Source of the DNA: Vigna angularis
Taxonomy: Eukaryota; Streptophyta; Magnoliopsida; Fabales; Fabaceae
Length of the DNA: 64,000 nt
Direction: 5' to 3'
NCBI RefSeq assembly: GCF_016808095.1
Contig: NC_068973.1
Coordinates: forward strand, 34,590,077-34,654,076
The translations under genes and the position numbers were made by a program. Numbering within the stretch: the stretch's first letter is position 1; every line of letters begins with the position of its first letter. The notes under the pieces are model-generated. The model was not told the origin of the DNA and made no database searches. It worked only from the letters and a program-made list of their open reading frames with translations. Shown here piece after piece: positions 6,285 through 52,220 of this stretch.

Positions 6285-6738
6285 GTCCCAAATGACACCG
6301 CTACACAACCCCTCTATTTCTAAGTTGCGCTCAGACCCGGGTATAGGGCCCCACTCACGATATGCATATTGTGTGTGTGTGAAGGGAGAATGCAATTGTA
6401 CACCCCAAACCCTCACCTGCAAAACAACCAGAAAATTCCCAGGCAGATATAACATGTTTTTCTACCCTAGGGTTCAATATAATCAAAACAAACACACATA
6501 CAATTATAACTGAGACTGTGAAATTGTGCTTAAATAATTTATGCTTTGGTGTTGAACTGGTACATGTGGCAATTATGTTTGTAAGTGTCTCTGTTGAAAT
6601 TAATCTGTTTTGGTTGAAATTGTTCTGGTTGGAGGGTTTGGAGTAAGGGCTCTGTGATAGCATGTATATGGGCAGATACTGTTTAAGGTTACTAGGGAAG
6701 GGTGATATATATAATTGGGTATTTGATGTCTAGAACAG
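6285..6738 (+). mobile_element. probable left part of the split Tekay 5' LTR
   Basis: The large element at 6739-24549 is flanked by the target duplication AACAG, and its right flank is clearly inside a Tekay 5' LTR that ends at 26441. The left flank should therefore be the upstream part of the same LTR. The outer start is uncertain: TGTCCCAAAT near 6285 resembles the expected terminal sequence only loosely. Confidence 0.4.
6734..6738. repeat. target-site duplication AACAG, left
   Basis: AACAG directly precedes the TGGTACGCGG terminus at 6739 and recurs directly after the other terminus at 24550-24554. A 5-bp duplication is the norm for LTR retrotransposons. Confidence 0.85.
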
Positions 6739-6889
6739 TGGTACGCGGGTCGCACCGCGTACAAATTCGATGCAACAAAAATAATGCAGTATAGCTAGGA
6801 AGTGACTCCTAGGTCGTCTCTCAAGGACCAAATATTGTGGTTCAGTCTCAGATCACACACGAAGTGGGGGGGTTTGAAATGGTTGTTTT

Positions 6890-7545
6890 TGCGATGAAAA
6901 TTAAATTACGGTGAAAATTAAACTAAAACAGTAAAACAAAATTTAAATAGTAAAAATTAAACTGCTACAGTAAAAAAAAAACGAAATTACAGTAAAATAA
7001 AACATTAAAATTAATTCTGGAACAGAAAACTAAAATACAGAAAATGAAAATACAGTAAACAATAATTACAGAAAACAGTAAAAACAGTAAAAACACTAAA
7101 ACAGTAAATTTTAGAAAACAGTAAAAAAAAACGAAAATACAGTAACATGAAACAGTAAAAAATAAATCTGAACAGTAAAAACGAAAATACAGTAAAATAG
7201 AAAATTACAGAAAACAGTAAAAACAGAAAACAGTAAAAATAGAAAACAGTAAAAAACGAAAATACAGTAAAACGAAACAGTGAAAATAAATCTGGGACAG
7301 TAAAAACAAAAATACAGAAAAATAGAAAATACAGAAAACAGTAAAAATAGAAAACAGTAAAAATAGAAAAAGAAATTACAGCAGTAAATAATAACAGTAA
7401 AAATAATAAATACAGAAATTCAAAATCAGTAAAACAGTAAAAACAAAATACAGAAAACATAAAATATAGAAAATAGTAAAAACAGAAAATAGTAAAAATG
7501 AAAATACAGTAAAAAGTAAAAACATAAAACAGTAAAATTCAAATC
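6890..7545. repeat. ACAGTAAAA-rich low-complexity tract
   Basis: About 650 bp built from ACAGTAAAA and ACAGAAAA variants. The complement gives long F/C/Y-rich frames on the minus strand (7011-7460, 7376-7579) that are composition artefacts. The right LTR has the same tract at about 21186-21825. Confidence 0.8.
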
Positions 7546-9877
7546 TGAAAACAACATCAACATTACGGCGGCAAAACATTTAAATCCAAACTACAGCTAA
7601 TAATTTAACGTGCAATATTCAACAACGCAGTGCAAACAACGGTAAAAATTAGACGACAGGTAAACAACACAGGAATTAAATTGCTACATAATTAAAAGTA
7701 CAGCAACAAATAAAACAGAGACAGTAAAATGGAATTGACATTTGAGTAACAGGAAATTAAATCACATTTTGCATTGAATGTAAATTCATTACAACTAAAA
7801 ACATAAAATTGGAACCTAGGAGCGTGTACACCAAAATCAGTTATTGTGCATCAACAGTAGCCTTCCGCAATTGTTCCAGTAGCTGTTGCAGCCAGCTTCT
7901 GCCGTGTCCTCCTCTGCTAGACAGGTCCAGCTTCTTCTTCCAATGGTCTCCCACACGGCTCTCTCTACCAAACTCCTTACATCACTCTACATTCCATACT
8001 ATTATGTTTTTCTATGAGGGAAAGACTCCCCCAGACCGTCAACCTCCTCTGCTGAACTGGGACTCCTTCTTTTATACACTAAATTCTCAAGTCTCGTTCT
8101 GGTACTGCTTGTGCGTTTCCAGCCAAGTTGCCATGCTGTTGTCTCCCATTAGCAACCTTCTTAATGAATTTCTTTAATCCACCATTGCTTCTCTGTCAGA
8201 TAAAGCCATGTGGGGCCCTCCATTTTTTTTACTTCTGCATATGCTCTGCACCGAGAACGCCATGCTGTTACTCCACCTAGTCTTCTCTTTGCTGAATTGC
8301 TTGCTTCTGCTCTCCATCCAGCCAATGAATCCATAAACGGTGGCTGCTGTATCAGCCTTCATCACTGTGAATCTCTAACTGATGTTGTTGCTGCTCATCA
8401 AGTGCTGGACATTGAGCACGCTGCTGGAGCAAATATTTTTCTGCTGAAAACGCGTGGAAGCATCAAGTCATGGCTGCAACGTGCATGTGTTCTTGGCTGG
8501 ACAGCAACTCTCAATGACTGTTGTTCTCTCCTTGCTCTGGATGCTCCTGGACATGCAGCTCATCCAAGCTTCTTCTTGAATCATCACCGTCCAACCTCCA
8601 TGAATGTGCCATGCTGCTGTGTGCGTTTTGGAGCTGCTTTCATGAGCTGCCCATGACTTTCTCTCCCTCTCAGTGGTTGCTGGAATGCTGCCAAATGAAG
8701 CTGTAAAAACTCCATAGCAGCTGCAACATGAAGGTGTGCTGGATGCGTGAGAAGTGGTGGAGTTGGACGTGTTGGAGCTGCTGGATGTGTGTTTCTTCCT
8801 AGGTGCAGCCGTGAGTTTTTCTTCTTGACATGGTGGGTGGAACTTTACTGGACCTGCAACCAGCTCTGGATCGAGAGTGCCTCTTCATTTTGCCTCTCTT
8901 CTTCTCCTCCCCTTGGTCATAACACCCATCATGTAGTGCTCATTCCAGCAAGCGTGTAACTCTTTGCATTTCTGGAGGTGGCAAGTGCAGCTTTCGGTCT
9001 CCTAATTGCAGCAAGGAAAAATAATATTTCCATGCTTGTATGTGTTGCTGACATGCATCTTCTTCACGTGTTGTGTGCGTGGCCTCCCACATCCATTCCA
9101 AAATATATTTTGTTCCATGTTTGACAAAAGTGTGCAGGGCCCGTGTGTTAGATGCTTGCCAAAATAAATTCTGATGGCTGTGAAACCTATTGCATTTTGC
9201 AATCCCACATGTGCTTTCAATCAAATTGTCTCATTCAAGAATTGGTGGTCCCCCTTGTGTTTTCATATTTCAGCAAATAAGAAGCAGTGTGGTGCCCACT
9301 TCATTTCCATATTTTTCTTCAACTAAAACTAATAATGGGACCCTTTACTGAAATTTAATTCAGCCGAGACTCATCCAAAGGCCCATGCATATTTTTTCTG
9401 AATTTCATGCTCACACATTTTGCTAAGTTGTTACCATTCCAGCCATGACATTATCACCTTACATGATGTTACTTTTTACTTGCTTCTCCATTTGTAAATG
9501 CCGTGAGATGTCCAAGCCATGTGTCTATGTTTCCAATTCAATTTCAACTTAAATGTGCCCTTGCAACCAAAAGAGTCTTACAATTAAATCACTTATAGCC
9601 ATGAGATGCATTGTCTAATGATCAATTCCAGCCACCACAAGTACCAAACAACAAGCAAACAATGCAAACATATTAGAACACTCAAACAGTAAGCACTGCA
9701 CTGGCATAGGAGAGTAAATAAAATACTGGGAACAACACAGAATGAATTTGAACAAAAGAAAAACTATACTTGAAACTAGACATCCAGACGAAACTATGAA
9801 AAAAAATTTCATGCAAAACGGATAAGAATTGAACTCAAACGAAGACACACAAGTTGACACAACATTCACGCAGCACT

Positions 9878-9912
9878 GGTAATCGTTTACAGCACTCCTG
9901 TAAACGATTACC
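9878..9912. repeat. perfect 14-bp inverted repeat in LTR
   Basis: GGTAATCGTTTACA (9878-9891), a 7-base loop, then TGTAAACGATTACC (9899-9912). A half-site recurs at about 10015-10028. The same structure is in the other LTR (24157-24191), and a diverged form lies at 5542-5574. Confidence 0.8.
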
Positions 9913-10270
9913 CGAGAGGAATTGCAAATTTGTACAGAAAGTCCAACACAGGTACTCAGTTAGGTGAACACAGGTCACCATTGGCAAAAAAACTGACTTT
10001 TAGGCACTTCTGCCCCTGTAAACGATTACCCGAGAGGAATTGGGAATTTGTACAGAAAGTCTAAATGTCCAAAAATATTTTCCAAAATTTTTCATGCACT
10101 CAATAATGTAAATCATTCGTTTCAGATAATTCAAATTAATTAAAATAAGAATTTCTGATCGGATTAGGCTCAATTCAGTAAAATGGGAAAATACTGGACA
10201 ATTAAGCACAATTCCCTGATTAATTCTAGCACAATAAACTAAATGAAGTGAATAAAATAATGATTCATCA

Positions 10271-11381
10271 AAATAGACCACACTTAGTCTTTTGCACTCC
10301 TGGGCAAAATTAAGACGCAAATCAGGGAATAATTCAATGGACATTAGGTGTACGACCAAAAACTCAGCACACAGAAAATAAAAACTCACAAGAAAGAAAG
10401 AAAATTTACACTGTTCTCAAGAAATCTGGACAACGAAAAGATGTAGACAATATCTGACACAAAATCATAGAAAACAGATACTCGCAGAAATCATCCAAGC
10501 AATTCAAAACATGGTAAAACAATTAATCAGTTCAAGAGGTGAATTAAAAGTACCAAAACCTCACAGATGCACTATCAGTGTTTCTCTCAAGTGTCTAGGG
10601 TAAATAATAATATCAGCTCGATGCACTCAAGAAAGCAAACACAAACAGACTTGGCAAGCCTCTAAAATCAACACTCAGAAGTATATGCATGTTTAAATCA
10701 AAAGGTCTTTTATGGCTGTAATGGGGCCAAGGACAAGGGAGGATAAATATGGATAAGTAGCTAAAAACCACAAGAAATAGAGGAGCAATGGGGAACAAGT
10801 GTAAACACAATCAAATCACACCCAAACCTCTAATTCAATCCTTTTCTTGACTCCATTATTCACAAAATTGTTTTTTTTTTCATTTTTCAATTTTTTTTTT
10901 TTCAATTTTTTTTATCACTCAACAAGATCATATTTCCAAAAATAAAACAAGATGAGGAACCAACTAGCCAATTTATAAGAATCCCCACGGAGACCACACT
11001 TATTCCCAAAACACTTCCAAAGCTCCAAATTTTCCTAAGGTTAAGGTAATCATGGTTTTTCACTTAGGGCTATTGTATGAGCTTTAAAACAAAGAAATGG
11101 ATACAGTATAGGCTCAAAGGGGTTATCAAATGATAATAACAGGGTAGGCTTATTTGGCTAATGAGGCTCAAGAACAAAAATGCCTTTGTCACGTCTAAAC
11201 ATGCATATCCATCAAGAATTATCAACAAGAATCAAGCCAAGGCACATGTGCAAGCAATCAAGAGACATGTCACACGCAAGAAAGAAATAAAGTGGCTCAA
11301 ATTCTCACAGGGTATTTGTCACAATCAAATCAACCTCTTAAACAGCATAATCATTTTCCAAGCAGAGAAAAGCAAAGATTT
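10271..11381 (-). other. internal region next to 3' LTR, non-coding
   Basis: About 1.1 kb of AT-rich sequence with T runs near 10870-10910. No supported open frame. It forms the 3' end of the internal region of the large element. The interrupted sequence continues at 16560 after the nested solo LTR. Confidence 0.6.
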
Positions 11382-11386
11382 CATGC
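11382..11386. repeat. target-site duplication CATGC of the solo LTR
   Basis: CATGC lies immediately before TGTCGCAACC and is repeated at 16560-16564 immediately after GTGTTGACA. The perfect 5-bp match dates the nested insertion as later than the host element. Confidence 0.88.
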
Positions 11387-12024
11387 TGTCGCAACCGGAA
11401 TCGCGACGGGACGACGATCCAATAAAGAAAAAGAAATTTTGAAAATAGATTTTGGAGTCGCCACCATAGTTTATTCTGGAAAACTACGGAAAAACCATAA
11501 AATGATAAGGCATGGTCAAATTGAACCAGATTCTTGGTTCGGGAGTCGGTTACGTGTAGGGAAGGTATTAGCACCCTACAACGCCTGCCCTAAAGCAGTA
11601 CCTTTAACTAAATGTGCGAATGTGGATGTGGTTTTCAAAGTATTTAACTTCCCCTTAAAATAAAACGCTAAAGAAAACAAACAAATATTTTTTAGCTTTT
11701 TGGGGCCCGACAAGGATTGACCTTGCTCCTACGTATTCTCATGCAGAATGAGAAATCAGGGTTCCGTAGTTCATTTGAAAACTGTTTGAGAAAATTGTTT
11801 GGAAATTTGTTTGAAAATTTGTTTTGAAATTATTTGGATTTTTGGGGAGAATGAGCCTGACAAGGACTGGCCTTGCTCCTACGTATCTCCACTTTTGATG
11901 GAGAATCAAGGATCACGTAGTTCTGGCAGGGCGATATTGTTTGTTGTATGAAATTGTTGATGTTTTTGGTTTTTGAGGATTTTTATATTTTTTTTTGGTA
12001 TTTTTTTATTTAGGAAAAAAAAAG

Positions 12025-12450
12025 GGAAAAGGTTTTTGGCACAAGGACGATGCGTGCGATCACACATGTGCCTAAACCTTTAAAACGTATTTTTTGGTAT
12101 TTTTGAAGAAAGAGAAAAGGTTTTTGGCACAAGGACGATGCGTGCGATCACACATGTGCCTAAACCTTTAAAACATATTTTTTTGGTATTTTGATGTAAG
12201 AAAGAGAAAAGGTTTTTGGCACAAGGACGATGCGTGCGATCACACATGTGCCTAAACCTTTAAAACGTATTTATTGGTATTTTTGAAGAAAGAGAAAAGG
12301 TTTTTGGCACAAGGACGATGCGTGCGATCACACATGTGCCTAAACCTTTAAAACATATTTTTTGCGTTTTGATGTAAGAAAGAGAAAAGGTTTTTGGCAC
12401 AAGGACGATGCGTGCGATCACACATGTGCCTAAACCTTTAAAACGTATTT
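12025..12450 (+). repeat. five-copy 88-92-bp tandem array in solo LTR
   Basis: GGTTTTTGGCACAAGG starts at about 12031, 12119, 12211, 12299 and 12389, so the spacing alternates 88, 92, 88, 90. Copies 1, 3 and 5 are followed by AAAACGTATTT, copies 2 and 4 by AAAACATATTT. Each unit holds an inverted repeat, GGCACA..TGTGCC bounded by GGTTT..AAACC. Confidence 0.9.
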
Positions 12451-15345
12451 TTGGGATTTTGTCAAATTCATTATTTATTTTATTTATTTATTTTTTGTAA
12501 TTTTTGTTCATTATAAAAAAAAAAGCGTGCGTAGTGTTTAGCAAATAAACAAGACAAATACAGTACAGAGGGATGGGGGTTACTTTACAAGGGGATTACA
12601 CGATATAAATTAATGACCAAACAAATAATAATAAAATTAAGAAACTAAAGCGTAAAAAACAAAACAAGAGAAAATTAACAAAATTAAGGGTACAGAGATA
12701 AAACCAGGATTGACGTGTGAAATTGAAGCTCCTTTGCAACTGCCAGGGGTGTAAAGATGAAATCTGGAGGAGATGCATCTGGTGAATGTGTGTTGGGTCC
12801 AAATCTTCTTCCTTTTTTTTTTATTGCCTAGATAAAAAGGGTGCAGATATATGATCCAGGGGTGCAGAAAAACGGCTGAGACCCTCTTTTTATTTTGTTT
12901 GTGGAAGGGCTTAAGCCCAGATGAAAGGGGATGTGCGGGTGAGAAACAGGGGGTGCTTGAAAGGGAAAATGTAATTTTTTTACTATGTGGATCTGGCCCA
13001 AGGCTTTTTTTTTTGTTCCTGTTCAGGAGAAAGTTAGGGGTTCTCCCATTTTCCCCATCACGCCTCACTCAAATGAAACCCACAGTTTATTTCTCTCCCA
13101 AAAACGCTCAAACGGCCGCCGCTGCCAGTGCCGCTTTCAGTCTTATCGGCGACGACATCACTCCGTCGGAGCCAACACCGGCCACGGCATCACTGTTCTC
13201 TCTCTCGTCTTCGAAAATGGCAACCCAGGGAAGGGTCTGCCTCTGCCGCACACGCACTGCGGCCTCTGCCAGACTCCTCGTCGCTGCGTCGTTGAACCCA
13301 GCTGCTTCCTCCGACACCGGCAGGCCAGGGAGGGGTTCGTTTCTGCCACCAGATCCAGGCCCCTCCTGATCTCTAATGTTGCCGGCAGTTCACAGACGTT
13401 TCCAAGGCCGCCGCTAGCCGCAGCGTCAGATCTTGCCCCTTTCTTCGCTGTTGATGGTGATTTGGGAATGGGTTGGGTTATTTGGTTGTGTGAGTTGGGT
13501 AATTGAAAAATGGTAAGAATGGGTGATACGGTGACGGGAAATGTAGTGGAAATAGTGAGTGAGTTGTGAAGAAGAAATGGTTGGGTGAGAGGAGCAGAGG
13601 GGTTGGAGAATGGTCTGAGAAGATGAAGGGGCTGACCGTGAGTTGTTGGCTGTGTGTGAATATGGAGGATGATGATCAAGTGTTGGAGGTGAATGAAAAG
13701 GAATGGTCAGAGGTTGGAAATGAAGATGATGGGTGTTTGAGGTGAAGGGTAGTGAGAAAGAAACAGGCTTGGTTGGAAAGCTGGAAGATATCGGGAAAGT
13801 TAGGGAAGGTTGATAGGTGTTGGCCGTGTATAAGGTGTAAGGATCAAGATGATGGTCGTGAGGGAATGAGGATGAAGCTGATGATTGGGTGAGGGAATAA
13901 GGATGGTGATGGTGGAAGGGAGTTCACGGGTGATCATGATGGATGTTGGCCGCGAAAAAGAGGAGGGAAGGGCATTAGTGGAGGCTATGGTTTATGAGTA
14001 TGGATGTTGGATATGATGTCCAGAGGTTGAAGATGAAAAAGTATGTGGTTATATGCGATGGTTGGAATTGATGGAGTTGGGGCGGAAAGGAAGTTAGGCC
14101 GTGGTATTCATTGTTGGAGGTGAAACTGAAGAAGAAAAGGATGGAGGTAATGGGTGGATGAAGATCAAGCGTTGGAGGTGATTACGGATCAGATGATGAT
14201 GATAATGGTGGAGATGGTGTAAGGATGATAGGTGCAGTGGGTGAATATGGATGATGACTGTAATTGACGGGTGGAAGATCGTAATCTGTCCCGAGTTTTG
14301 AGTTCACCCCTGGTCTCCCCCAGATGATGGAAAGTGTTGGTTGTGTGAATGATGATGGCCGAGAGGTGTAGTTGCAGCAGAGGATGAATGATGATGGGTT
14401 TTTGGAGGTGATGAAAATGGAGGGAGAAAAGTGAGGTGGTTGGGTCACGGTGGGTGTTGGGGATCCATCAGAAGTGATGAAAAACTGGCCCTTAATCTGG
14501 TTTGGTGGCGTTCCCAGGTGTGGTGAGTGATCAAGGGATGAAGGGGTTCCCCTGTGAGTTGTTGGCTCTGTCTGGGAATATCCAGGATGTATGTTCCGTC
14601 TGGAAGGATTTGGTGTTGATGGTGATATAAGGATGAAAATGATCAGAGAGGGGTCAGTGGTGGATATGGATGATGGGCAGTTACTGGAGTGGGAGTGAAA
14701 AAGGAAAAAATGGTTGGGGTTACGGGTGTTGGCCGTGAGGTATTGGAGGGTGAGGATAGGTTGAAGATAGATGTCTCCAGGTGAGGATAGGTTGAAGATA
14801 GATGTCTCCAGTAGCCGTGGGGGTATTTGGGTTAAGAAAGATGGCCGGAGATGAAAGATAAGCTTGCTGGCTAGGATGGTGATGGGTGAAGTAACTAGCG
14901 TCCCGCTCGGTTTCCCTGATGAGTGAAGAAGAAACAATTTTTATAAAAAAAACTTCAAAACCCGTGAGCCTCTCCTCCTATTCAGAAATAATCTGTGAGT
15001 ACACATTCCATTGCATGCTGAGCAACAGTCCCTGGGCGTGAGGAAATAGGGTAAGGGCCCCTCCATCTTGTCTTCATCTTCATACTGTGGGCATCCTTCT
15101 GTGCGTGTGGTATGCTGGATGGTGATGTTCTCGGTGATGGGTTCAAAAAACATTGGTTTATTGGTTTCGAATGGGTACTTGATGGATGGAACAAAAGGAT
15201 GGAAAGGTGATGAAGCAACGGAGGATAGCACGAATTGCTCATTGAGAGGATAAAGAGGTGTTGGAGATGAAGGCCGTGAGGTTGGAAAATGAGGATGATG
15301 ATCTGGAGATAGTGCTGTTCTTTTTTCCTTTTTGCATTGGGGTTG

Positions 15346-15356
15346 AGCGGTATTTA
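15346..15356 (+). promoter_or_regulatory. putative LTR core promoter (TATTTAA)
   Basis: GCGGTATTTAAGGGG sits at the change from purine-biased U3-like sequence to the ACGARCG cluster. This is the usual place for an LTR TATA box, which would put the motif cluster in the transcribed R/U5 part. This is inference. Confidence 0.35.
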
Positions 15357-15364
15357 AGGGGTGA

Positions 15365-16415
15365 GGTGGACGAGCGCTCAGGACGAGCGTTGTCTGAGGG
15401 GTGAGGTGGACGAGCGCTCAGAATGAGCGTTGAGAAAGGGGTGTTGTGAACGAGCGCTCAGGACGAGCGCTCTGGACGAATGGTAGAAGGGAAATAGGAC
15501 GAACGTTCTCGCAACAAGAGAACGAACGCTCAAAGAACTCAGGACGAGCACTCAGAGGGTTGAGGTGGACGAGCGGCAGAGGATGGGAGTGATTAGGACG
15601 AACGCCTTACACTTTCTTTGACGAATGATGTTTGCTGCTGGGCCGAACGCTAGACAAACGAACGCTGAAGACAAACACATGGAGACCGAACGTTCAAATG
15701 AGACCGAGCGTTCAAGTGAAGACCGAACGCTCATTAAACAATATAAACCGAACGCTCAAAATCAAACGTACACCAATAACGAGCCCCCAAAACCGAACGC
15801 TAAAAAACAATCACACACCAAAAACGAACGTTCAAATGAGTGTAAATAACTTCAAAACCGAACGTTCACTAACACAAAACCGAACGGTAACAAATATGAC
15901 CGAATGCTTGATGAGGAGGACGAACGTCCAAAATGATAAAATGGCCGAACGGTCGAATAGTGAACGTTTGATGACCGAACGGTTGAAGATGAGGACGAAC
16001 GTCCTAAAAGAAACGAAATGCCGAACGGTCAAACAAAGCAAAAGACGAACGGTCGAATCAGTGCAAAGGACGAACGGTCGAACAGTGCAACAAGACGAAC
16101 GGTCACTGTTCGGACGAACGGCAACAGCAACAATGGGGAAGGACGAACGGTTACTGTTTGGACGAACGTCCACAGTATCAGAGGACGAACGTCTGAACAA
16201 CAGTTGGGAAGGACGAACGTTTACTGTTTGGACGAACGGTTGAACAATGGGGAAGGACGAACGGTTCAACAGTGGGCAAGGACGAACGGTTCAACAGTGG
16301 GCAAGGACGAACGGTTCGACAATGGGGAAGGACGAACGTCACAACAGTGGGGAATGAACGAACGGTTCAACAGTTGGGGAAGGACGAACGCTCACTGTTT
16401 GGACGAACGTCTGAT
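15365..16415. repeat. ACGARCG motif cluster in solo LTR
   Basis: Several dozen copies of GGACGAGCG, GGACGAACGGTC, CCGAACGCTC and similar across 1 kb. The first part is mainly ACGAGCGCTC, the middle CCGAACG, and the end GGACGAACGG with spacers such as TTCAACAGTGGG and TTACTGTTTG. Overlapping frames on both strands here (15632-16243, 16018-16488, 15832-16269) are products of the repeat. Confidence 0.85.
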
Positions 16416-16564
16416 CTTTTTTTTTTTTTTTTCTTATTTTTTATTATTTATTATTTTTTTTCTTTTTATATACACACACATTTTTTAATTTTTCCTTTTA
16501 TGAGGATAAAACAATAAAACAAATTATTTAGTCAATCCGGACGAAATTGAGTGTTGACACATGC

Positions 16565-16980
16565 CATGAGTATTAATCAAGTGAAATGAAAGACGAGTCT
16601 ACAACTTAAACAAAGTCCAGAAAATAGAGAAAAAATGTAAAATTGCACACAAAAACACACTAAAAATAATCAAAAACAGAAAAAATTTAACACATAAAAC
16701 AAAGAACAATCAGAATCTCTCCCTATAGACCACACTTAAACTACACATTGTCCTCAATGTGTTCTAAGCATACATCATCAATCAAAACACGAAACATATT
16801 ATGGACAAGTGCAATAAAAGGTAGGGAAATGGGAAGAAATTTTCAGTAACATCCATCAGTAGATGTTATCATTGACATCCATCAGCAGATGTCCAAATCA
16901 CCTAGCACCCATCAGTAGATGCTAAAATAATTTTTTTTTAACTTAATTAATTTTTATTTTTTTTATTTTTTATTTTTTTT
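16565..16980 (-). other. internal non-coding region between homeobox gene and 3' part
   Basis: This continues the internal region of the large element after the nested solo LTR. It contains ATAGACCACACTTA (about 16724), also found next to the 3' LTR (10274). It also has three copies of a CATCAGTAGATG-type motif (16850-16921). No coding frame. Confidence 0.5.
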
Positions 16981-17070
16981 ATTTTGTTTTGAAAAAGGAA
17001 AAGACCGGTACTGTGACAATAGTTTCGGTGGGAATGACCGGAACTATTGCTACAGTGAAAACAATTTGGC

Positions 17071-17078
17071 TATAAATA
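17071..17078 (+). promoter_or_regulatory. TATA box of homeobox copy B
   Basis: TATAAATA is preceded by GACCGGAACTATTGCTACAG, a close match to the sequence ahead of copy A. A CT-rich leader starts near 17100 and runs to the donor GTAAGT at 17267. The acceptor TTTAG ends at 17941, 18 bases before the ATG. Confidence 0.65.
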
Positions 17079-17577
17079 GGCCAACTTCAGCGCCTGAGCG
17101 ACATTTCTGACTGCCATACTCTCTCTCTACTCCTCTCTTCCCTCTCTCTCTTCTCTTCCCTCTCTCTACTCCTCTCTGAGCGTCTGGAGCTGCGCGGAGC
17201 CTCTGCCACCGCGCCTTCTGAAGAGTCTGAGAATTTCGAGGAGCCTCTGCAAGCCCACTTCTCCAGGTAAGTCCTTCTTCACCTGGATCTCCCTTTCTTT
17301 CTGCTTGCTTTTACATTTCCTTCTTTCTGCCTTCTCTTTTCTTCTTCTATTTTCCTTTTCTTTCCTCTGTGTTGCTCTCCCTTTACTGCTTTCCCTTTAC
17401 TGCTTTCCATCTTCTTTCTGTATTTCCTTTCCTGTTTTCCCGTATTTTTCTTCTTTGCACTGCTCTTTATTTTTCTTTCCGCTCCATCTTCTTTCTTCTC
17501 CTTTTCAATTTTTTTTTATTTTTATTTTATTTTTTATTTTAACTAAAAACACTAAAAATACAACTGTCTAAAAACTT

Positions 17578-17668
17578 AAGGGGTATATCGGCTGGAAACC
17601 AGACGTTAATCTCCCTTCGTTTGAAGGTATGGCAGAGACAATCGGGTAGAACAACGCCACGTACCCCA
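17578..17668 (+). other. conserved block in leader intron, copy B
   Basis: Counterpart of 1172-1262 with 2 mismatches in 91 bp by eye. It lies inside the 674-base leader intron (17267-17941). It includes GGCTGGAAACCAGACGTTAA and CAATCGGGTAGAACAACGCC. Confidence 0.65.
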
Positions 17669-17959
17669 CTAAAAACTAAAAACACAGAAACATAAATTAA
17701 AACAAGAACAACACGGACAAGGACAACAGGACAACAGGACGTAGATCCGTTTAGGACCCTTTTGCAAGGACCGTGAAACAGATCAGAGACCAGACCAAAA
17801 ACATCAAAGACAGACAGGACAAAATAAATCTAAAAGGAAACAAGAACAAATAAAGAAAACACAGAACTAAGAAATTGTTTTTTTTTTTTTTAAATTATGC
17901 ATTTTTATGAGTTATGCTTTGTTTTTTTTTTTTTTTTTTAGAATACAGCGAGAGGAAGA

Positions 17960-18524
17960 ATGAGCGAGATGGAAGCAGAGAGATACACCAGTCAGCGGTG
18001 GCGTCCTACCGAAGATCAGACCCAGATGATGACCAGAATCTACAACTTTGGGGTCACACACCCAAGTAGAGCGCAAGTTGTCGAGATCACGTCTCGACTA
18101 AGGATCTTCGGAGATGCCAGCGAATACAACGTGCACTGCTGGTTCAACAATCACGGCAATCGGGTCAGGCGCTGGCAAGCGGAGATAGACCCTACTGGCA
18201 CTCAGTTTTCGCAACTGCCGCTATATATGTACGGTAAGACTCTGATCAAATCTCACTTTTATTTGTTTTTTTTTTTTTTTTTTTCCTTTCCTCTTCTATT
18301 ATTAACACACAATTTTTTTTTTTTTTTTTTTGCCGAAAGATTATGACTGGGTGATTATGAGGGCACCGAGGCTGCTGAATCTGTTTCCCGTTCCGATCAT
18401 CATCGACGACGATAGGGACGTACGACAAATCCCTCCACCCATGCTTCTCACATTCCTAACCAGAGCTCCCTCAACGGAGCTCTCCCTTAGACCGCCACAA
18501 CCAGCTCGAGAATTCTTCCGTTGA
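17960..18524 (+). CDS. WOX-like homeodomain protein, cargo of the Athila/Tat element
   Basis: Exons 17960-18233 and 18340-18524, with exon lengths (274 and 185) identical to copy A and the same phase-1 intron, give 152 residues. The homeodomain spans about residues 12-74 with RWRPT, SRLRIFGD and the recognition helix NVHCWFNNHGNRVRRWQ. The tail has LLNLFPV (WUS-box-like) and ELSLRPP (EAR-like). It lies antisense to the retroelement, downstream of gag, and keeps its own TATA box, leader exon and introns. Retained introns mean it was not taken in as a processed sense-strand cDNA. Relative to copy A there are 16 residue changes; in exon 1, I count 19 synonymous and 11 replacement codons. Likely a DNA-binding, possibly repressing protein; the target is unknown. 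Confidence 0.8.
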
Positions 18525-19176
18525 ATTTTTATGTTTTATGTTTTTTTTTTATGTTTTAGCTGGCCGAGTGTGGCCAGAATTTGAACAAGGCATGTAATCT
18601 GAACACTTAATTTTTTATTTTTTTTTTTTATGCTTTTTTTTTATGTTTTTTTTATTATGGTCTGTAATACTTAACGATCAGAAATGATCGAACCCTGAAC
18701 ATCTTTATTTTATGTTTTTATGTATTTTATTTTATTATCAGCAGTGTAAGACAGAATGTTTTCGGTGAATTAGGTTATTTTAAATAAATGCACTCAGATT
18801 ATATCTCTGCTCAAACCTCACCTCTCTGCCCTATTACTGCAATTTTGCTCTCTGTTTTTTTATTTTTTATTTCTATGTTTTAACAAAAACTAAATAAATA
18901 AATAAAAACAGAACACATATTAACAAAACAAAATACCAAATAACGAACACAAAATATCAAAGCAGATAAAACACATATATTAAAAACAGCAAACAAAACA
19001 CATATTTACAAAACATACATTAACAAAATCACAGACATAAAACAGAACACAAAATTTTTTTTTTTTTTTTTTTTATAAAATAAAAATAACAAATCAAAAA
19101 CTAAGAAAATCAGAATTCTCCCCTAATTCACAAACCAAGAAAATTAAGGGAAGAAGGAACAGGAAAACTCCCCTGG
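18525..19176. other. A/T-run region between homeobox gene and gag
   Basis: The 3' flank of the homeobox gene, with an AACGATCAGAAATGATCG inverted motif at about 18673 that is similar in copy A, followed by A-rich sequence up to the gag stop. No coding frame. The 3' ends of the convergent homeobox gene and gag lie about 650 bp apart. Confidence 0.5.
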
Positions 19177-20805
19177 TTATGGTGGCAGTTGCCAAACTTG
19201 GACAAGCAGAGAGATGTTTTCGATCACAGGATTCAGCAAAGAAAATTTGAGGAAGAACTGCTTCATCAGTATTCTTCTCGTAGCAATTTGTTTCAGCAGT
19301 ATCTCTCCTTCCACTAGCAGTTGTTGAGTGTGTGACACCGGAATAGATATCTCTGGCTCGCTCAAAGAAGTAGCAGTATACTCTTCTTCATCAATCATCA
19401 ATTCTTTAATGTCATCACCTGCATTCTCTTTTAACTTTGCATTCTTGTCATCAAACTCACATTTAATAGCATCTGTAATAAACTTAGAGTTTGGCTGTAA
19501 CGCATAACCAATTTCAGCACAAATGGAGCAAGAACCAGATTCGCAATCACATTCAAAATTTTCAGAAAACTGTGTTAAATCAAAGTTTAGTCCTAACTCT
19601 ATAAAATCATCAGATTGCACAGTTTCTCTTTCAAAATCAATATTGACGCGACTTTGACCAATGGGTTCAATGGCTGACACTGAATTAAAAATTTTAGAAT
19701 GGTCAATCAAATCTGTATCTGTATCAGTTACAAACCCTATATGATCAGTGTGCATCAAATCACAAGCATTTGAATGTGTATGCAAATCAGGTAAAGTAAT
19801 TGGAATATCAGGTTCAGAATAAACCTGTTTTTGCTCATTGAAAAGTTCTTTACCAATCTCTAAGTCATCAACTGCGTCCTCAGGGCTATTAGTGTCAGAA
19901 TCCAGAATAGGTTGCTCAGTGGTAAGCTCATAACTTTGTTCCCCATCTCCTATGTTGATGGCACTGCCATCGTCATCTGGAATCTGAACAGTCTGAAATG
20001 GTATCTCTGAATCTTGAGACTGTTGTTCAGTGAATTGAGTAGTCAACTGCCATATCTGATTATTCGTACTCTGAATGAGAGCTTGTGTCTTTTGTTGAAG
20101 CTCCATGATTTCTCGCTTAAACTGAATGCTCTGCATGGTTTTCTGCTCCAATAACTCCTTCAATGCGGGTTCAGAAGTGAAAAGCTGAGGAGCTATTTCG
20201 GCAGTAACATCATGGAATTGCATCTGCTGTTCTTGCCGGACTGGTGGAGGCATGAAAGTACTCTGGAATGGTGGTTCTTGATATTGATGCTGTAGAGCAC
20301 TGTACCATCCCAAGGTAGGGTCATTCCATCCAGGATTGTTGTTGTTTCCATCATGCACAGGGGAAAATTTGCTCAGAAATTTTTGCTCAAGATCTTCCCA
20401 TCTGGTAATGAGTCCTGGAGAAAGATAATACAGCCAATCCTTAGCTGCTCCTTGTAATGAATGCGGAAATGCCCTCAAGAAAATGTGATCATCTGGGATA
20501 TTTGGAGGTTTCATATAACAGCAAATTCCATATAACTTCTCCAAATGCGCCTGCGGGCATTCATTCGCAACTCCATGAAAATGGGGCAGCAAATTTATCA
20601 GTCCAGTGGGGATCACTAAATGATCATCATCCTCAGTAGGTGGAACCGGCTCACGAGGAGCGGTCTCAGGACATTTAGGACGAGCCATATAATTCTCATC
20701 GTAGAATTCAGCAGAAGTACAATCAGAGTACCAAGCAGAAGGAGAATCATAATCACAGACATTGGCAGAATAAGCATAATTCACATAATCAAAATTGGTA
20801 GACAT
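19177..20805 (-). CDS. Gag of the Athila/Tat-branch element
   Basis: 542 codons from the ATG at 20805, which is preferred over an in-frame upstream ATG at 20847 because it starts a more gag-like N-terminus; both lie downstream of the primer-binding site. Residues about 70-150 form a retrotransposon gag core, with IPDDHIFLRAFPHSLQGAAK and DWLYYLSPGLITRWEDLEQK followed by FLSKF. This is the Athila/Tat style rather than chromovirus. After that comes Q-rich and acidic sequence with no clear CCHC zinc knuckle; a cysteine cluster (CDCESGSCSIC) is different in spacing. There is no protease or pol downstream. Gag would form the particle that packages element RNA. The intact length agrees with a recent insertion. 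Confidence 0.8.
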   Translation of the reverse strand: MSTNFDYVNYAYSANVCDYDSPSAWYSDCTSAEFYDENYMARPKCPETAPREPVPPTEDDDHLVIPTGLINLLPHFHGVANECPQAHLEKLYGICCYMKPPNIPDDHIFLRAFPHSLQGAAKDWLYYLSPGLITRWEDLEQKFLSKFSPVHDGNNNNPGWNDPTLGWYSALQHQYQEPPFQSTFMPPPVRQEQQMQFHDVTAEIAPQLFTSEPALKELLEQKTMQSIQFKREIMELQQKTQALIQSTNNQIWQLTTQFTEQQSQDSEIPFQTVQIPDDDGSAINIGDGEQSYELTTEQPILDSDTNSPEDAVDDLEIGKELFNEQKQVYSEPDIPITLPDLHTHSNACDLMHTDHIGFVTDTDTDLIDHSKIFNSVSAIEPIGQSRVNIDFERETVQSDDFIELGLNFDLTQFSENFECDCESGSCSICAEIGYALQPNSKFITDAIKCEFDDKNAKLKENAGDDIKELMIDEEEYTATSLSEPEISIPVSHTQQLLVEGEILLKQIATRRILMKQFFLKFSLLNPVIENISLLVQVWQLPP

Positions 20806-21008
20806 GGAAAAATAAAAATACTGAAAATTACGAAACAAATAAAACAAAAAACATTTTTTAATTTTTATTTTTTAATTTTTTTTTTTTAACAATCAAAATA
20901 CATATGACATGCGTACAGAAAACAGAACATCACATCACAACACGAGACAAAACACGAAACACAACAAATACAAACACACAACAAAAAATCCAAGACTAAA
21001 CCACTATT

Positions 21009-21028
21009 GGTCCCCGGCAACGGCGCCA
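21009..21028 (-). promoter_or_regulatory. primer-binding site of the large element
   Basis: Read on the minus strand, TGGCGCCGTTGCCGGGGACC follows the LTR end (GCGTACCA) after a few bases. This primer-binding-site sequence is common in plant Athila/Tat-branch elements. Its position between LTR and gag fixes the orientation of the element as minus. Confidence 0.8.
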
Positions 21029-21033
21029 AAATT

Positions 21034-24000
21034 TGGTACGCGGGTCGCACCGCGTACAAATTCGATGCAACAAAAATAATGCAGTATAGCTAGGAAGTGA
21101 CTCCTAGGTCGTCTCTCAAGGACCAAATATTGTGGTTCAGTCTCAGATCACACACGAAGTGGGGGGGTTTGAAATGGTTGTTTTTGCGATGAAAATTAAA
21201 TTACGGTGAAAATTAAACTAAAACAGTAAAACAAAATTTAAATAGTAAAAATTAAACTGCTACAGTAAAAAAAAACGAAATTACAGTAAAATAAAACATT
21301 AAAATTAATTCTGGAACAGAAAATGAAAATACAGTAAACAATAATTACAGAAAACAGTAAAAACAGTAAAAACACTAAAACAGTAAATTTTAGAAAACAG
21401 TAAAAAAAAACGAAAATACAGTAACATGAAACAGTAAAAAATAAATCTGAACAGTAAAAACGAAAATACAGTAAAATAGAAAATTACAGAAAACAGTAAA
21501 AACAGAAAACAGTAAAAATAGAAAACAGTAAAAAACGAAAATACAGTAAAACGAAACAGTGAAAATAAATCTGGGACAGTAAAAACAAAAATACAGAAAA
21601 ATAGAAAATACAGAAAACAGTAAAAATAGAAAACAGTAAAAACAGAAAAAGAAATTACAGCAGTAAATAATAACAGTAAAAATAATAAATACAGAAATTC
21701 AAAATCAGTAAAACAGTAAAAACAAAATACAGAAAACATAAAATATAGAAAATAGTAAAAACAGAAAATAGTAAAAATGAAAATACAGTAAAAAGTAAAA
21801 ACATAAAACAGTAAAATTCAAATCTGAAAACAACATCAACATTACGGCGGCAAAACATTTAAATCCAAACTACAGCTAATAATTTAACGTGCAATATTCA
21901 ACAACGCAGTGCAAACAACGGTAAAAATTAGACGACAGGTAAACAACACAGGAATTAAATTGCTACATAATTAAAAGTACAGCAACAAATAAAACAGAGA
22001 CAGTAAAATGGAATTGACATTTGAGTAACAGGAAATTAAATCACATTTTGCATTGAATGTAAATTCATTACAACTAAAAACATAAAATTGGAACCTAGGA
22101 GCGTGTACACCAAAATCAGTTATTGTGCATCAACAGTAGCCTTCCGCAATTGTTCCAGTAGCTGTTGCAGCCAGCTTCTGCCGTGTCCTCCTCTGCTAGA
22201 CAGGTCCAGCTTCTTCTTCCAATGGTCTCCCACACGGCTCTCTCTACCAAACTCCTTACATCACTCTACATTCCATACTATTATGTTTTTCTATGAGGGA
22301 AAGACTCCCCCAGACCGTCAACCTCCTCTGCTGAACTGGGACTCCTTCTTTTATACACTAAATTCTCAAGTCTCGTTCTGGTACTGCTTGTGCGTTTCCA
22401 GCCAAGTTGCCATGCTGTTGTCTCCCATTAGCAACCTTCTTAATGAATTTCTTTAATCCACCATTGCTTCTCTGTCAGATAAAGCCATGTGGGGCCCTCC
22501 ATTTTTTTTACTTCTGCATATGCTCTGCACCGAGAACGCCATGCTGTTACTCCACCTAGTCTTCTCTTTGCTGAATTGCTTGCTTCTGCTCTCCATCCAG
22601 CCAATGAATCCATAAACGGTGGCTGCTGTATCAGCCTTCATCACTGTGAATCTCTAACTGATGTTGTTGCTGCTCATCAAGTGCTGGACATTGAGCACGC
22701 TGCTGGAGCAAATATTTTTCTGCTGAAAACGCGTGGAAGCATCAAGTCATGGCTGCAACGTGCATGTGTTCTTGGCTGGACAGCAACTCTCAATGACTGT
22801 TGTTCTCTCCTTGCTCTGGATGCTCCTGGACATGCAGCTCATCCAAGCTTCTTCTTGAATCATCACCGTCCAACCTCCATGAATGTGCCATGCTGCTGTG
22901 TGCGTTTTGGAGCTGCTTTCATGAGCTGCCCATGACTTTCTCTCCCTCTCAGTGGTTGCTGGAATGCTGCCAAATGAAGCTGTAAAAACTCCATAGCAGC
23001 TGCAACATGAAGGTGTGCTGGATGCGTGAGAAGTGGTGGAGTTGGACGTGTTGGAGCTGCTGGATGTGTGTTTCTTCCTAGGTGCAGCCGTGAGTTTTTC
23101 TTCTTGACATGGTGGGTGGAACTTTACTGGACCTGCAACCAGCTCTGGATCGAGAGTGCCTCTTCATTTTGCCTCTCTTCTTCTCCTCCCCTTGGTCATA
23201 ACACCCATCATGTAGTGCTCATTCCAGCAAGCGTGTAACTCTTTGCATTTCTGGAGGTGGCAAGTGCAGCTTTCGGTCTCCTAATTGCAGCAAGGAAAAA
23301 TAATATTTCCATGCTTGTATGTGTTGCTGACATGCATCTTCTTCACGTGTTGTGTGCGTGGCCTCCCACATCCATTCCAAAATATATTTTGTTCCATGTT
23401 TGACAAAAGTGTGCAGGGCCCGTGTGTTAGATGCTTGCCAAAATAAATTCTGATGGCTGTGAAACCTATTGCATTTTGCAATCCCACATGTGCTTTCAAT
23501 CAAATTGTCTCATTCAAGAATTGGTGGTCCCCCTTGTGTTTTCATATTTCAGCAAATAAGAAGCAGTGTGGTGCCCACTTCATTTCCATATTTTTCTTCA
23601 ACTAAAACTAATAATGGGACCCTTTACTGAAATTTAATTCAGCCGAGACTCATCCAAAGGCCCATGCATATTTTTTCTGAATTTCATGCTCACACATTTT
23701 GCTAAGTTGTTACCATTCCAGCCATGACATTATCACCTTACATGATGTTACTTTTTACTTGCTTCTCCATTTGTAAATGCCGTGAGATGTCCAAGCCATG
23801 TGTCTATGTTTCCAATTCAATTTCAACTTAAATGTGCCCTTGCAACCAAAAGAGTCTTACAATTAAATCACTTATAGCCATGAGATGCATTGTCTAATGA
23901 TCAATTCCAGCCACCACAAGTACCAAACAACAAGCAAACAATGCAAACATATTAGAACACTCAAACAGTAAGCACTGCACTGGCATAGGAGAGTAAATAA

Positions 24001-24549
24001 AATACTGGGAACAACACAGAATGAATTTGAACAAAAGAAAAACTATACTTGAAACTAGACATCCAGACGAAACTATGAAAAAAAATTTCATGCAAAACGG
24101 ATAAGAATTGAACTCAAACGAAGACACACAAGTTGACACAACATTCACGCAGCACTGGTAATCGTTTACAGCACTCCTGTAAACGATTACCCGAGAGGAA
24201 TTGCAAATTTGTACAGAAAGTCCAACACAGGTACTCAGTTAGGTGAACACAGGTCACCATTGGCAAAAAAACTGACTTTTAGGCACTTCTGCCCCTGTAA
24301 ACGATTACCCGAGAGGAATTGGGAATTTGTACAGAAAGTCTAAATGTCCAAAAATATTTTCCAAAATTTTTCATGCACTCAATAATGTAAATCATTCGTT
24401 TCAGATAATTCAAATTAATTAAAATAAGAATTTCTGATCGGATTAGGCTCAATTCAGTAAAATGGGAAAATACTGGACAATTAAGCACAATTCCCTGATT
24501 AATTCTAGCACAATAAACTAAATGAAGTGAATAAAATAATGATTCATCA
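21034..24549 (-). repeat. 5' LTR of the large element
   Basis: 3516 bp. It matches 6739-10270 except for a 15-bp deletion near 21320, one base fewer in an A run near 21270, and a T/C difference near 21643, as noticed by eye. It carries the same ACAGTAAAA tract and the hairpin at 24157-24191. It drives the minus strand, toward gag. Confidence 0.9.
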
Positions 24550-24554
24550 AACAG

Positions 24555-26441
<1,887 letters not shown>

Positions 26442-26456: not shown

Positions 26457-26587
26457 TAGTTTCCTCCTTAGAAACCTGTAGGTTGTGGGTGTGCATTGTT
26501 TGTGATTGGGTGTTTAGTCGTGTATAGGTAGTTATATTAGTTCCCTTGAGTTGGGCTAATGGTCTTTTCTCCCTATGTGAACAGAAG

Positions 26588-29500
26588 ATGGCACCTAGGC
26601 TTCCTCCTCCTCCTCCCCCACAGGTCGATCCGTCTGACTCTAACCAGATGTTAAATACTGTGCTTCAGGCGTTGCAACAGCAGAATGCTGCACTGGTTCA
26701 GCAGAACACCATAGCCCTACAAAAATTGGAAGCTGCTAGGATATCGGCTGAGAATGCTAGAGTGTCATCTGAGAACACTCAAAGCCAGTTCATGGAAGTG
26801 TTGACTAGTGGCAGGGCCACTCCAGGTGCTTCCTCCTCCGCTATGCCTGTACAAGAATGGAGTTTGGAGAATTTCCTCCAACAACACCCAGCCAGATTCA
26901 CTGGGAAATGCAGCCCTGATGAAGCCGACCACTGGTTTAGAGACATGGAGAGGATTTATGAAGCTAAGGGGTGTTCTGATGATAGGAAATTAGCCTATAC
27001 TCAATATCTGCTGACCGGGGAAGCTGGCCATTGGTGGAGCAGCATGAAGATGATCCTGGAGAGGAGTGAAACTCCTATCACCTAGGAGTTGTTCAGGGTC
27101 AAATTTTACACTGAGTACTTCCCAGACAGTGTGAGGTTTGCAAAAGAAGTAGAATTCATGGAGCTGGTACAGGGCAACAAATCAGTGTCAGAGTATGCAG
27201 ACCGCTTCAAACATCTACTTCGCTTCAACACTATGGCGGTGGATGAAGAATGGCAATGCAGAAAATTTGAAAATGGCTTGAGGAGTGATATCAAGCTGCT
27301 TGTAAAGGGGTTACGCATCAGAGAGTTCCTTGCTCTGGTGGAGATGGCCCGTGATCTAGAGAAGACGAAGAGGGAATCTGAGAGACAGCAGAGTCAGCCT
27401 GCTAGGAGTGGGGGATCATCTGGGTCTCGTGGTGGACTTAGCACTAGGAAGACCCCTTACACTAGACCATCCCTTTCTTCTGGGTCTAGGGGTTCATCCT
27501 CTCAGCCATCAGTACAGTCAGGACCAGCCAGACCATCTGGCACCGTTAGATGTTTTGGTTGTGGAGGACCTCATTACCGGAACAACTGCCCTCTGGCAAA
27601 TGGCGCAAGGAAGTGCTTCAAGTGCGAAAAAGAGGGACACATTGCTGTTGAGTGTACCTCTACAGCAGGGTCAGGGCCTTAGGCGCAGAGGACTCGTTTG
27701 CCTCCACCCAAGGGAGGTGGTAGACCCCAAGCGGTGGGTAGAGTATACGCCATGACAGGATCAGAGGCAGTCAGCTTAGGTAACCTCATCATCGGTGGCT
27801 GTTTGCTTCTTGGTGTGCCTTGTGTGGTGCTATTTGATTCGGGGGCAACACACTCCTTCATATCAGAGGCATGTGTTGAGAAATTGGGTATGTCTGTAGA
27901 AGAGTTAGACTTGATCTGGTGGTGTCTACACCAGCATCAGGGTTAGTCAGGACATCTTCTATGTGTGTCCGTTGTCCGATCGTCATAGAGGGACGTCGGT
28001 TCAAGGTAAACCTCATATTTTTATCTTTGAAGGGGTTAGAGGTGATCTTCGGAATGGATTGGCTATCTGCCAATCGAATCCTCATCGACTGCGGTAATAA
28101 GGAGTTGATATTCCTCGATGAAGGCGAGAACATGCCCTTGTCACTGGGGGTGTTGAGACAAGACCTTATAAAGGGCGCTTGTTGTTTCCTGATCATGTCT
28201 TACATGGACGGAGTTCAGGATCCAAACCTTTCAACTCCGGGAAACCAGAGTGTGGATCTTCGGGTTGTGGATGATTTTATGGACGTATTCCCTGAAGAAG
28301 TTCCTGGCCTACCTCGTCCGAGAGAGGTAGAGTTCTCTATAGACTTGGTCTCAAGATCAGGACCAATTTCTATAGCCCCGTACCGGATGGCGCCAGCAGA
28401 GTTAGCGAAATTGAAGAAACAGATTGAAGAGTTGCTAGAGAAGCAATTCATTAGGCCCAGTGTTTCACCTTGGGGTGTACCAGTGTTGTTGGTGAAGAAG
28501 AAGGATGGCAGCTCCAGATTGTGTGTTGATTATAGGCAACTGAACAAACTCATGATCAAGAACAAGTATCTGTTGCCTAGGATAGATGATCTGTTGGATC
28601 AATTGCATGGAGCCACTGTGTTTTCTAAGATTGACTTGAGATCAGGCTACCATCAAATCTTGGTGAAGGCTGATGACGTACAGAAGACAGCCTTTAGATC
28701 CAGATATGGCCATTACGAGTATGTAGTCATGCCTTTTGGGGTGACTAATGCTCCCGCCATCTTCATGGATTACATGAACAGGATCTTCATACCTTTCTTA
28801 GATAAATTCGTGATTGTTTTCATAGATGACATCTTGGTTTATTCTAAGACTCGAGAAGAGCATGAAGATCACCTTAGAACAGTCCTTGGAATCTTGAGAG
28901 AAAGAAAGTTATATGCAAAACTGTCTAAGTGTGAGTTTTGGATGGATGAAGTGCCTTTCTTGGGGCATGTTATCTCGGCTGGCGGAATTGTTGTTGATCC
29001 AGCCAAGGTACGAGCAGTGATGGAGTGGGAAAGGCCTAAGACGGTTACAGAGGTCAGGAGCTTTGTGGGCTTAGCAGGCTACTATCGCCGCTTCATTGAG
29101 AACTTTGCTCGGATAGTAGCGTCGTTGACCCAATTGACCAGGAAGGATCAGCCCTTTGTTTGGACTGATAGGTGTGAGACTAATTTCCAAAAGGTAAAGC
29201 AGAAGTTGACGAGTGCACCGGTGTTGATTATTCCTGACACAGGGAAACCCTTTGAGGTTTACTGTGATGCCTCCTACCAGAGATTGGAGTGTGTATTGAT
29301 GCAAGAGAAGAGAGTGGTCGCTTATGCCTCAAGACAACTCAAAGTGCATGAGAAGAATTATCGCACTCATGACTTGGAGTTGGCTGCAGTCGTTTTTGCA
29401 TTGAAGATCTGGAGACATTACTTGTATGGAGCTCAATTTCAGGTGTTCAGCGACCACAAGAGTTTGAAGTATCTGTTTGATCAGAAGGAACTGAATATGA

Positions 29501-52143: not shown

Positions 52144-52220
52144 AACAACCTCTTTTTCCCAATTTCACTCTCTATATACCTATCTAAACAAAAATAAATA
52201 AAATAAATAAATAAATAAAT

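Follow-up and report, generated by a model that had tools for sequence, protein, structure and literature searches.

A WOX-type homeobox gene antisense to gag in LTR retrotransposons of Vigna angularis: a candidate element-maintained repressor

What is a homeobox gene of plant developmental type, with what appear to be its own promoter and introns, doing inside a long terminal repeat (LTR) retrotransposon? The question is raised by a stretch of 64,000 nucleotides of the Vigna angularis genome (contig NC_068973.1, positions 34,590,077 to 34,654,076; hereafter the window, in whose own numbering coordinates are given), in which such a gene lies at 17036-18524 on the + strand within an element of 17,811 bp (6739-24549) whose sense strand is the − strand. 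A preliminary description, made from the letters of this DNA alone, had drawn attention to the gene and its peculiar setting. Our analysis of the unit, of its relatives across the V. angularis genome and of the selection on its coding sequence suggests that the gene is maintained by the retrotransposons themselves. Published work cited below was available in part, and what we say of it refers to those parts.

The putative transcription unit begins with a conserved promoter element, GACCGGAACTATTGCTACAGTG (17036-17057, +), followed by a TATA box, TATAAATA (17071-17078, +), which has a similar spacing in a second homeobox copy in the window and in L070, a homolog borne by an Ogre-type element; both are discussed below. 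A palindrome of 14 bp, ACTGTAGCTACAGT, sits about 15-20 bp upstream of the TATA box. Both the second copy and L070 have it in perfect form, and the window element's own copy has an imperfect version; GCTACAGTG is found in 21 of 22 aligned units. The leader exon (17096-17266, +, its start approximate) would end at a GTAAGT donor at 17267 that is common to the second copy (at 801) and L070, and the predicted leader intron (17267-17941, +) is of the GT..AG form with its acceptor AG at 17940-17941. Coding exon 1, specifying the homeodomain (17960-18233, +), and coding exon 2, specifying a WUS-box-like LLNLFPVP and an EAR-like ELSLRP (18340-18524, +), are separated by a predicted GT..AG intron (18234-18339, +) whose donor falls at the same codon in all 40 family copies compared (37 as parsed by script, the other 3 as read by eye). 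The antisense WOX-type gene with two coding exons and 152 residues of the preliminary description is thus borne out by the exon reading and by the Pfam match given below, and its claim of a separate promoter and introns agrees with the TATA box, the GT/AG introns and the promoter element kept in the second copy and L070.

Two non-coding blocks within the leader intron are conserved as well as the exons or better. Block A (17580-17667, +) is identical to the second copy at 86 of 88 positions and is matched in 18 of the 20 family members fetched with their flanks (all but L018 and L026); the gene model P0049 includes part of it as an exon. Block B (17719-17850, +) has its counterpart at 1300-1400 in the second copy. 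It may be recorded separately that the 88 nt of block A have complementary ends (GGGGTA..TACCCC) and are kept at 86/88 between copies with a synonymous divergence of 0.58, and that block B, around AGATCCGTT..AGGACCC..TTGC.AGGACC, is kept from the window family to the Ogre-type L069 and L070, where homeodomain identity is only about 40%. A structured RNA was considered for block A and rejected: it matches no Rfam family at gathering score, has modest folding z values of -1.1 to -2.8 and shows hardly any variation in its alignment for testing base pairing, and the single below-gathering Rfam match, near block B, is at chance level.

The spliced product of 152 residues matches the Pfam Homeodomain profile PF00046 with an E-value of 1.8e-6 (28.1 bits against a curated cut-off of 22.9), and a PDB sequence search at E<=1 retrieves STENOFOLIA (STF, 4.5e-11) and WUSCHEL (WUS, 1.8e-10) alone. 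The objection, raised along with the preliminary description, that a profile search might find no homeodomain therefore fails. An AlphaFold model of the homolog P0001 has three helices at a predicted local distance difference test score of ~70-83 and is poor in the remainder, with a mean of 58.8, the homeodomain being the only part modelled with any confidence; in Foldseek the hits ranked 1-9 are all STF/WUS homeodomains, at E-values of 3e-3 to 1.3e-2 and none at or below 1e-3. The profile and the modelled three-helix fold point to a homeodomain protein, and the sequence comparisons to one of the WOX type.

The recognition helix reads HCWFNNHGNRVRR in the family alignment as against FYWFQNHKARERQ in WOX proteins, its core being WFNNHG in the window protein versus WFQNHK in WUS/STF, and a diverged group of family members has mostly WFQNHGNR. 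The homeodomain asparagine (WF.N) is retained in the element family, and we take the altered residue to be position 50, a classical specificity position. The C-terminal half carries the family motifs LL.LFP.P and STELSLR, represented in diverged members by TLDLFPIPP and by VELTLRLP or ELSLRLS. P0073 and L070 have the full WUS-box (TLDLFPIPP), L069 a near-full one (TLDLYPIPP) and the window protein LLNLFPVP; the Ogre-borne L070 has VELTLRLP as its EAR-like motif. The diverged members fit both the published WUS-box, T-LX-LFPXX, and the published EAR motif, LXLXL, as these are given in the available text (PMC9968055).

The surrounding element has the parts expected of an LTR retrotransposon, arranged along its sense as 5' LTR, primer-binding site (PBS), gag-like open reading frame (ORF), antisense homeobox unit, a long part of tandem repeats in which no domain was recognized, and 3' LTR. 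The 5' LTR (21034-24549, −) and the 3' LTR (6739-10270, −) differ by 1 substitution in 3515 aligned columns and two gaps, of 15 nt and 1 nt, and the element is flanked by the target-site duplication AACAG (6734-6738 and 24550-24554). At a substitution rate of ~1e-8 per site per year, LTRs this similar suggest a very young insertion of about ten thousand years. The PBS, TGGCGCCGTTGCCGGGGA, lies at 21011-21028 (−), and its complement, TCCCCGGCAACGGCGCCA, is the sole match in the window when up to 3 mismatches are allowed (0.01 expected). The gag-like ORF of 556 aa (19177-20847, −) scores below the curated cut-off of the Retrotrans_gag profile PF03732 (E 1.7e-4, 22.2 bits against 24.1); its 33 homologs at E<=1e-3 comprise, by name, 22 from V. 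angularis, 10 from Trifolium and 1 from Lupinus, with E-values down to 7e-143 among the V. angularis ones and a Trifolium one matching PF03732 at 1e-24, which argues that it is a gag. An 88-bp tandem repeat containing GGACGATGCG occupies 12021-12460 (+) with 4.9 copies at 92%.

No pol was detected in this element: the 10 longest ORFs of 10270-17070 gave no outstanding Pfam match, and tblastn searches of the element interior with chromovirus-type and Ogre-type queries found nothing. The Ogre-type reverse transcriptase (RT) query picks up the pol of the window's other gypsy element at 5e-69, so it is able to detect a distant pol. As far as these searches reach, the element appears to be non-autonomous. 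The 17.8-kb element with LTRs, AACAG duplication, PBS and gag, and with pol missing, that the preliminary description had reported is accordingly recovered in each of its parts.

The preliminary description had missed both a second copy of the gene in the window and a genome-wide family. A first protein search (E<=10) yielded 58 clusters with 257 member sequences, all named V. angularis, and a second search using an alignment yielded 73 clusters, including the diverged group and, by the names shown, all from V. angularis except one from V. radiata. The V. angularis genome holds at least 298 matches to the gene, on contigs C1-C11 among the matches listed, nine of which, counted by eye among those listed, carry an in-frame stop (two within ranks 1-30). 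From ranks 1-30 we took 20 copies together with flanks of 4 kb on the upstream and 6 kb on the downstream side, two of the ten left out being stop-bearing. In 19 of these 20 flanked copies an antisense gag stands 1.1-2.9 kb 3' of the gene; the match is weak in L028, and L021 is the copy without one. LTR-like sequence occurs on both sides in 18 and on one side in L011 and L027, and hence on at least one side in 20/20. The exact PBS was found in 8/20 and pol in 0/20 with the chromovirus-type and Ogre-type queries. LTR pairs that are 99.2-100% identical over 770-1838 bp, several of the matches ending at the limit of the fetched stretch, were found in 16 of the 20 (one of them, L010, in tandem), five at 100%.

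The usual member among the flanked copies is therefore a compact element of LTR, gag, antisense homeobox gene and LTR, with about 5-6 kb inside, of which the window copy is an enlarged version. A check proposed with the preliminary description, whether matches are positioned between gag and the 3' LTR, is answered for V. angularis by these gag and LTR counts. Nor were two objections raised with that description borne out in what was examined: that the homologs might sit at fixed genic loci, and that the LTR pair might be an assembly error. A cruder measure was the adjacency of locus tags, by which 4 of 11 chromosomal gag tags (three LR48 gag tags being left out) lie within two tags of a homeobox gene, with 0 of 200,000 random placements as close; this stopgap is superseded by the 20 flanked copies. 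One gene model, P0105, which looks rearranged, joins a gag tail and a homeodomain on one strand. Arrays of GACGARCG are also seen in the window, one with 24 hits on a single strand at about 15369-16409 (+); the 31 hits in the window are all on the + strand and occur only beside the two homeobox copies (approximately 3766-3956 and 15369-16409). As a family feature or as binding sites these arrays were rejected, 13/20 family members having none.

The second copy (554-2122, +) is a complete unit with the shared promoter element at 554, a TATA box at 588-594, a leader intron at 801-1535 and a coding sequence at 1554-1827 and 1938-2122. Its 3' flank holds remnants of an Ogre-type gag (3145-3558, −; tblastn E 8.6e-13) and of a DUF7745 ORF (5018-5736, −; E 5.7e-18), so this copy too is antisense to a retroelement, of the Ogre type; neither pol nor LTRs were detected beside it. 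The sequence at 6349-6511 recurs behind another gene copy in the gene model P0004. Between the two window copies identity is 86 and 88% in the exons, 65% in the coding intron, 51% in the upstream sequence and 50% in the 3' flank, the introns and flanks overall falling at 50-72%. The 61 coding differences are distributed over the three codon positions as 7, 11 and 43, and the nonsynonymous divergence (dN) is 0.058 against a synonymous divergence (dS) of 0.584, giving an omega of 0.10 (Fisher p 2e-16).

The same signature extends to the family. We fetched 40 copies (20 long, and 20 short from lower ranks), all from entries without a listed stop and chosen also by similarity. Both exons are open in 40/40 (37 by script, 3 by eye), and a start codon stands at or just before codon 1 in 39/40. 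Among 38 sequences (36 of those fetched plus the two window copies, leaving out L041 and the 3 copies that the script did not parse), the ratio of nonsynonymous to synonymous differences per site (pN/pS) ranges over 0.12-0.21 for 700/703 pairs, those in the six bins with pS >0.02. These values indicate that the family coding sequence has been under purifying selection. Synonymous divergence between copies reaches 0.5-0.6. Most of the dated LTR pairs are near-identical and the copies differ at up to half of their synonymous sites; hence most of the divergence would have arisen in replicating element lineages, and it would be the element, not a host locus, that kept the gene.

From where did the elements obtain it? 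With the STF homeodomain as query, a genome search brought up host WOX genes along with the element series, and 20 homeodomains were fetched, of which 18 fall into ordinary WOX clades by their tree groups (11 WUS, 4 intermediate and 3 ancient, clade names that we assigned to the groups). The tree with host WOX genes, a further check proposed at the outset, was run: the element proteins form their own clade (support 93/96, on few alignment columns), and these 18 host homeodomains lie outside it. Placing the family within the WOX clades by homeodomain trees was abandoned because the alignments are too short. The remaining two (H66 and H67) fall with P0073 in the tree; their mean identity is 47% to the WUS clade versus 37-38% to the other clades. 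They are closer to the WUS clade and a middle group of family members is closer to the intermediate clade, so the exact WOX source is ambiguous.

H66 and H67 are found on two chromosomes, in each case antisense and 0.55-0.58 kb beyond a pol. The pol ORF of L069 matches RVT_3 (E 2.8e-17), rve (4.3e-11) and Integrase_H2C2; that of L070 is in two pieces, the first matching RVT_3 (2.8e-18) and Integrase_H2C2 (2.1e-8), the last (162 aa) without a Pfam match. Upstream of the L070 gene, the stretch L072 holds RVT_1, gag, G-patch and a DUF7745 ORF. We take RVT_3 to be the archaeal-type RNase H and an extra ORF before gag to be the Ogre-like order. Archaeal-type RNase H is a mark of the Tat clade (PMC6317226), and its predicted presence with integrase beside the antisense gene identifies these relatives as Tat/Ogre-type elements. 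L071 and L072 gave no match to each other as an LTR pair around the L070 element, the stretches fetched not necessarily reaching both of its ends.

The L070 gene has a promoter, GACCGGAACTGTAGCTACAGTGG, identical to that of the second window copy, followed by CTATAAATAG, the GTAAGT donor and block B, at a homeodomain identity of only 39-42% between the window family and the Tat/Ogre-type elements. This conservation indicates that the whole predicted transcription unit is homologous between a pol-bearing Tat/Ogre-type element and the pol-less window family. The Tat/Ogre link drawn in the preliminary description was thus right in spirit, the homologous gene standing antisense after pol in elements of that type. 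The window element's gag has no tblastn match to L072, and the second copy lies beside an Ogre-type gag; the cassette therefore seems to have crossed between element lineages, unless the gag has diverged beyond recognition.

Antisense ORFs are well known from the Ogre/Tat/Athila superclade, where they encode TRP28, plant mobile and other domains (PMC7264820, PMC11963269, PMC6317226), and papers of 2020 and 2025 state that neither their origin nor their function is known (PMC7264820, PMC11963269). In common bean, 15 gypsy families have an antisense ORF2, in some with an SMC domain (PMC4093653). The aORF-3R or eORF-3'R of these elements, such as gene23 of Grande and TRP28 of Retand, resembles the window gene in lying antisense and 3' of gag or pol, and for the Grande ORF an upstream promoter of its own and nuclear localization are reported (PMC7264820, PMC11963269). 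In the texts available, those ORFs have TRP28, plant mobile, SMC-like or unknown domains, whereas here the product is a WOX-type homeodomain protein, the gene has introns and the flanked copies are pol-less. A parallel for a host regulatory domain fixed in a gypsy lineage, with a different domain from the one here, comes from Ty3/gypsy elements of orchids that carry an AlkB-type demethylase and from the B3-domain elements of Aegilops tauschii (PMC9289625). The screen of 121 angiosperm genomes in that paper reports AlkB, B3 and others, and the word "homeo" does not occur in its main text as available; it used an RT marker, so pol-less elements would be missed (PMC9289625).

Three other comparisons can be made. 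The Ogre/Tat elements, represented by L069, L070 and L072, together contain the DUF7745 ORF, gag, RT, RNase H, RVT_3 and integrase domains, and their antisense unit follows pol; the window element has a gag-like ORF alone. Non-autonomous gag-only elements of the TR-GAG type have LTRs, PBS and gag without pol; the window element differs in adding the antisense gene. The WUSCHEL-clade WOX proteins STENOFOLIA and WUSCHEL share with the window protein the homeodomain spacing, the WF.N asparagine and WUS-box-like and EAR-like motifs, and are distinguished from it by its length of 152 aa, changed recognition helix, carriage by transposons and separate clade. In the literature searched, judged mostly by listings and with subscription papers largely outside it, no homeodomain gene in an LTR retrotransposon was named, and a homeodomain antisense ORF is likely to be new.

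We think it probable, reading from sequence to function, that the gene encodes an element-maintained mini-WOX repressor with self-limiting expression. It would descend from a WUS-clade WOX gene and now serve the element, and its introns would survive retrotransposition because splicing would not remove them from the genomic RNA, which is of the opposite strand. The protein would be made from its own promoter, bind DNA via the homeodomain with its altered recognition helix and repress through WUS-box/EAR contacts with TOPLESS; a WUS-box together with an EAR motif recruits TPL in Medicago HEADLESS (PMC6305195). The likeliest target would be the conserved palindrome beside its own TATA box, with self-limiting expression as the result; a possible pay-off would come from acting, in stem-cell or germline tissue, on promoters of the host or of the element.

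Several observations weigh against this proposal. The candidate operator is imperfect in the window copy itself, and sites of WOX type are not enriched in the element LTR. The window protein's WUS-box is without the threonine, and its EAR-like tail has two of the three leucines. Homeodomain trees do not put the element clade within the WUS clade, and the middle group (P0060-P0063, P0069) is 45-50% identical to intermediate WOX proteins versus 35-39% to the WUS clade. The match in L010 continues past the LTR end into internal sequence, which indicates a tandem arrangement that dates no insertion. As to selection, stop-bearing entries lie outside the 40-copy sample, which biases both the intact fraction and omega toward constraint; L024 has lost its start codon, the tail of L037 is shifted and L041 parses by script with a different acceptor; the three closest pairs have a pN/pS of 0.47; and omega is 0.21 on terminal branches and 0.16 on internal ones (p 0.11), not clearly higher, which leaves room for selection after insertion.

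How do other explanations fare on the same evidence? Were the gene a passenger, a host WOX fragment captured by chance and multiplied without function, it would join a well-documented class of plant gene captures by transposable elements (PMC13317346), and the open frames alone would prove little, many insertions being young and the fetched copies being those without listed stops. The omega and pN/pS values and the persistence of the unit, promoter included, in both pol-bearing and pol-less elements make this quite improbable. An expanded adzuki homeobox family under ordinary host selection that retrotransposons repeatedly overtook is likewise very unlikely: P0046, P0060, P0062 and P0067 are indeed annotated as WUSCHEL-related homeobox, and the gene models stem from an annotation that as a whole drew on RNA-seq (PMC5389050), yet the LTR-like sequence beside every flanked copy and the near-identical pairs in most of them point to mostly new insertions at a synonymous divergence of 0.5-0.6, and the ordinary WOX homeodomains stand outside the element clade.

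If the antisense RNA rather than the protein were what matters, either as double-stranded RNA against the gag/pol RNA, an action proposed for antisense transcription (PMC7264820), or through functional intron blocks, the conservation of blocks A and B at or above that of the exons and the reach of block B to Ogre-type elements would be accounted for. The codon-shaped constraint between the window copies, the loss of block A from two of the 20 copies whose frames stay open, and the Rfam and folding results given above speak against it, and we regard it as unlikely. A protein acting mainly on the host, by mimicking or blocking WOX/TOPLESS control in meristem or germline so that insertions are inherited, would fit the WUS clade's domain order and the TPL recruitment by the corresponding motifs in HEADLESS (PMC6305195); with WFNNHG in place of WFQNHK the host targets may be lost, and we hold this to be possible, if doubtful. 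The self-limiting, element-maintained repressor is therefore the reading that we prefer, and we offer an extension of it tentatively, as less probable than the core proposal: Tat/Ogre-type Vigna elements may have passed a portable antisense WOX-like repressor cassette to a pol-less swarm with a different gag. Such a cassette would have a palindromic operator-promoter and introns that survive only by facing the other way, and with it the element would regulate its own expression and take advantage of the WOX/TOPLESS program of host stem cells or germline.

Elsewhere in the window, another Ty3/gypsy element lies at 26546-29751 (+), its ORF at 27919-29751 encoding protease, RT and RNase H domains, and an ORF of glycosyltransferase family 43 (57854-58792, E 3.5e-31) is probably an exon of an ordinary host gene. 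To the right of the homeobox-bearing element lies a very long (TA)n-type microsatellite (24849-25548), and the stretches 45651-47248 and 50794-52495 are 79-89% identical in the same order, as a local duplication or two related repeats.

For the biology of V. angularis, the consequence is a genome with hundreds of WOX-like homeobox copies of transposon origin (at least the 298 matches noted above), whereas 18 of the homeodomains fetched are ordinary WOX ones. Annotation is affected, some element copies being named WOX2, WOX4 or WOX8-like, and there may be developmental consequences. For the retrotransposons, this is an antisense ORF with a recognizable WOX source, predicted DNA binding and TOPLESS recruitment, a conserved candidate operator and signs of selection during element replication, which makes its role in the element testable.

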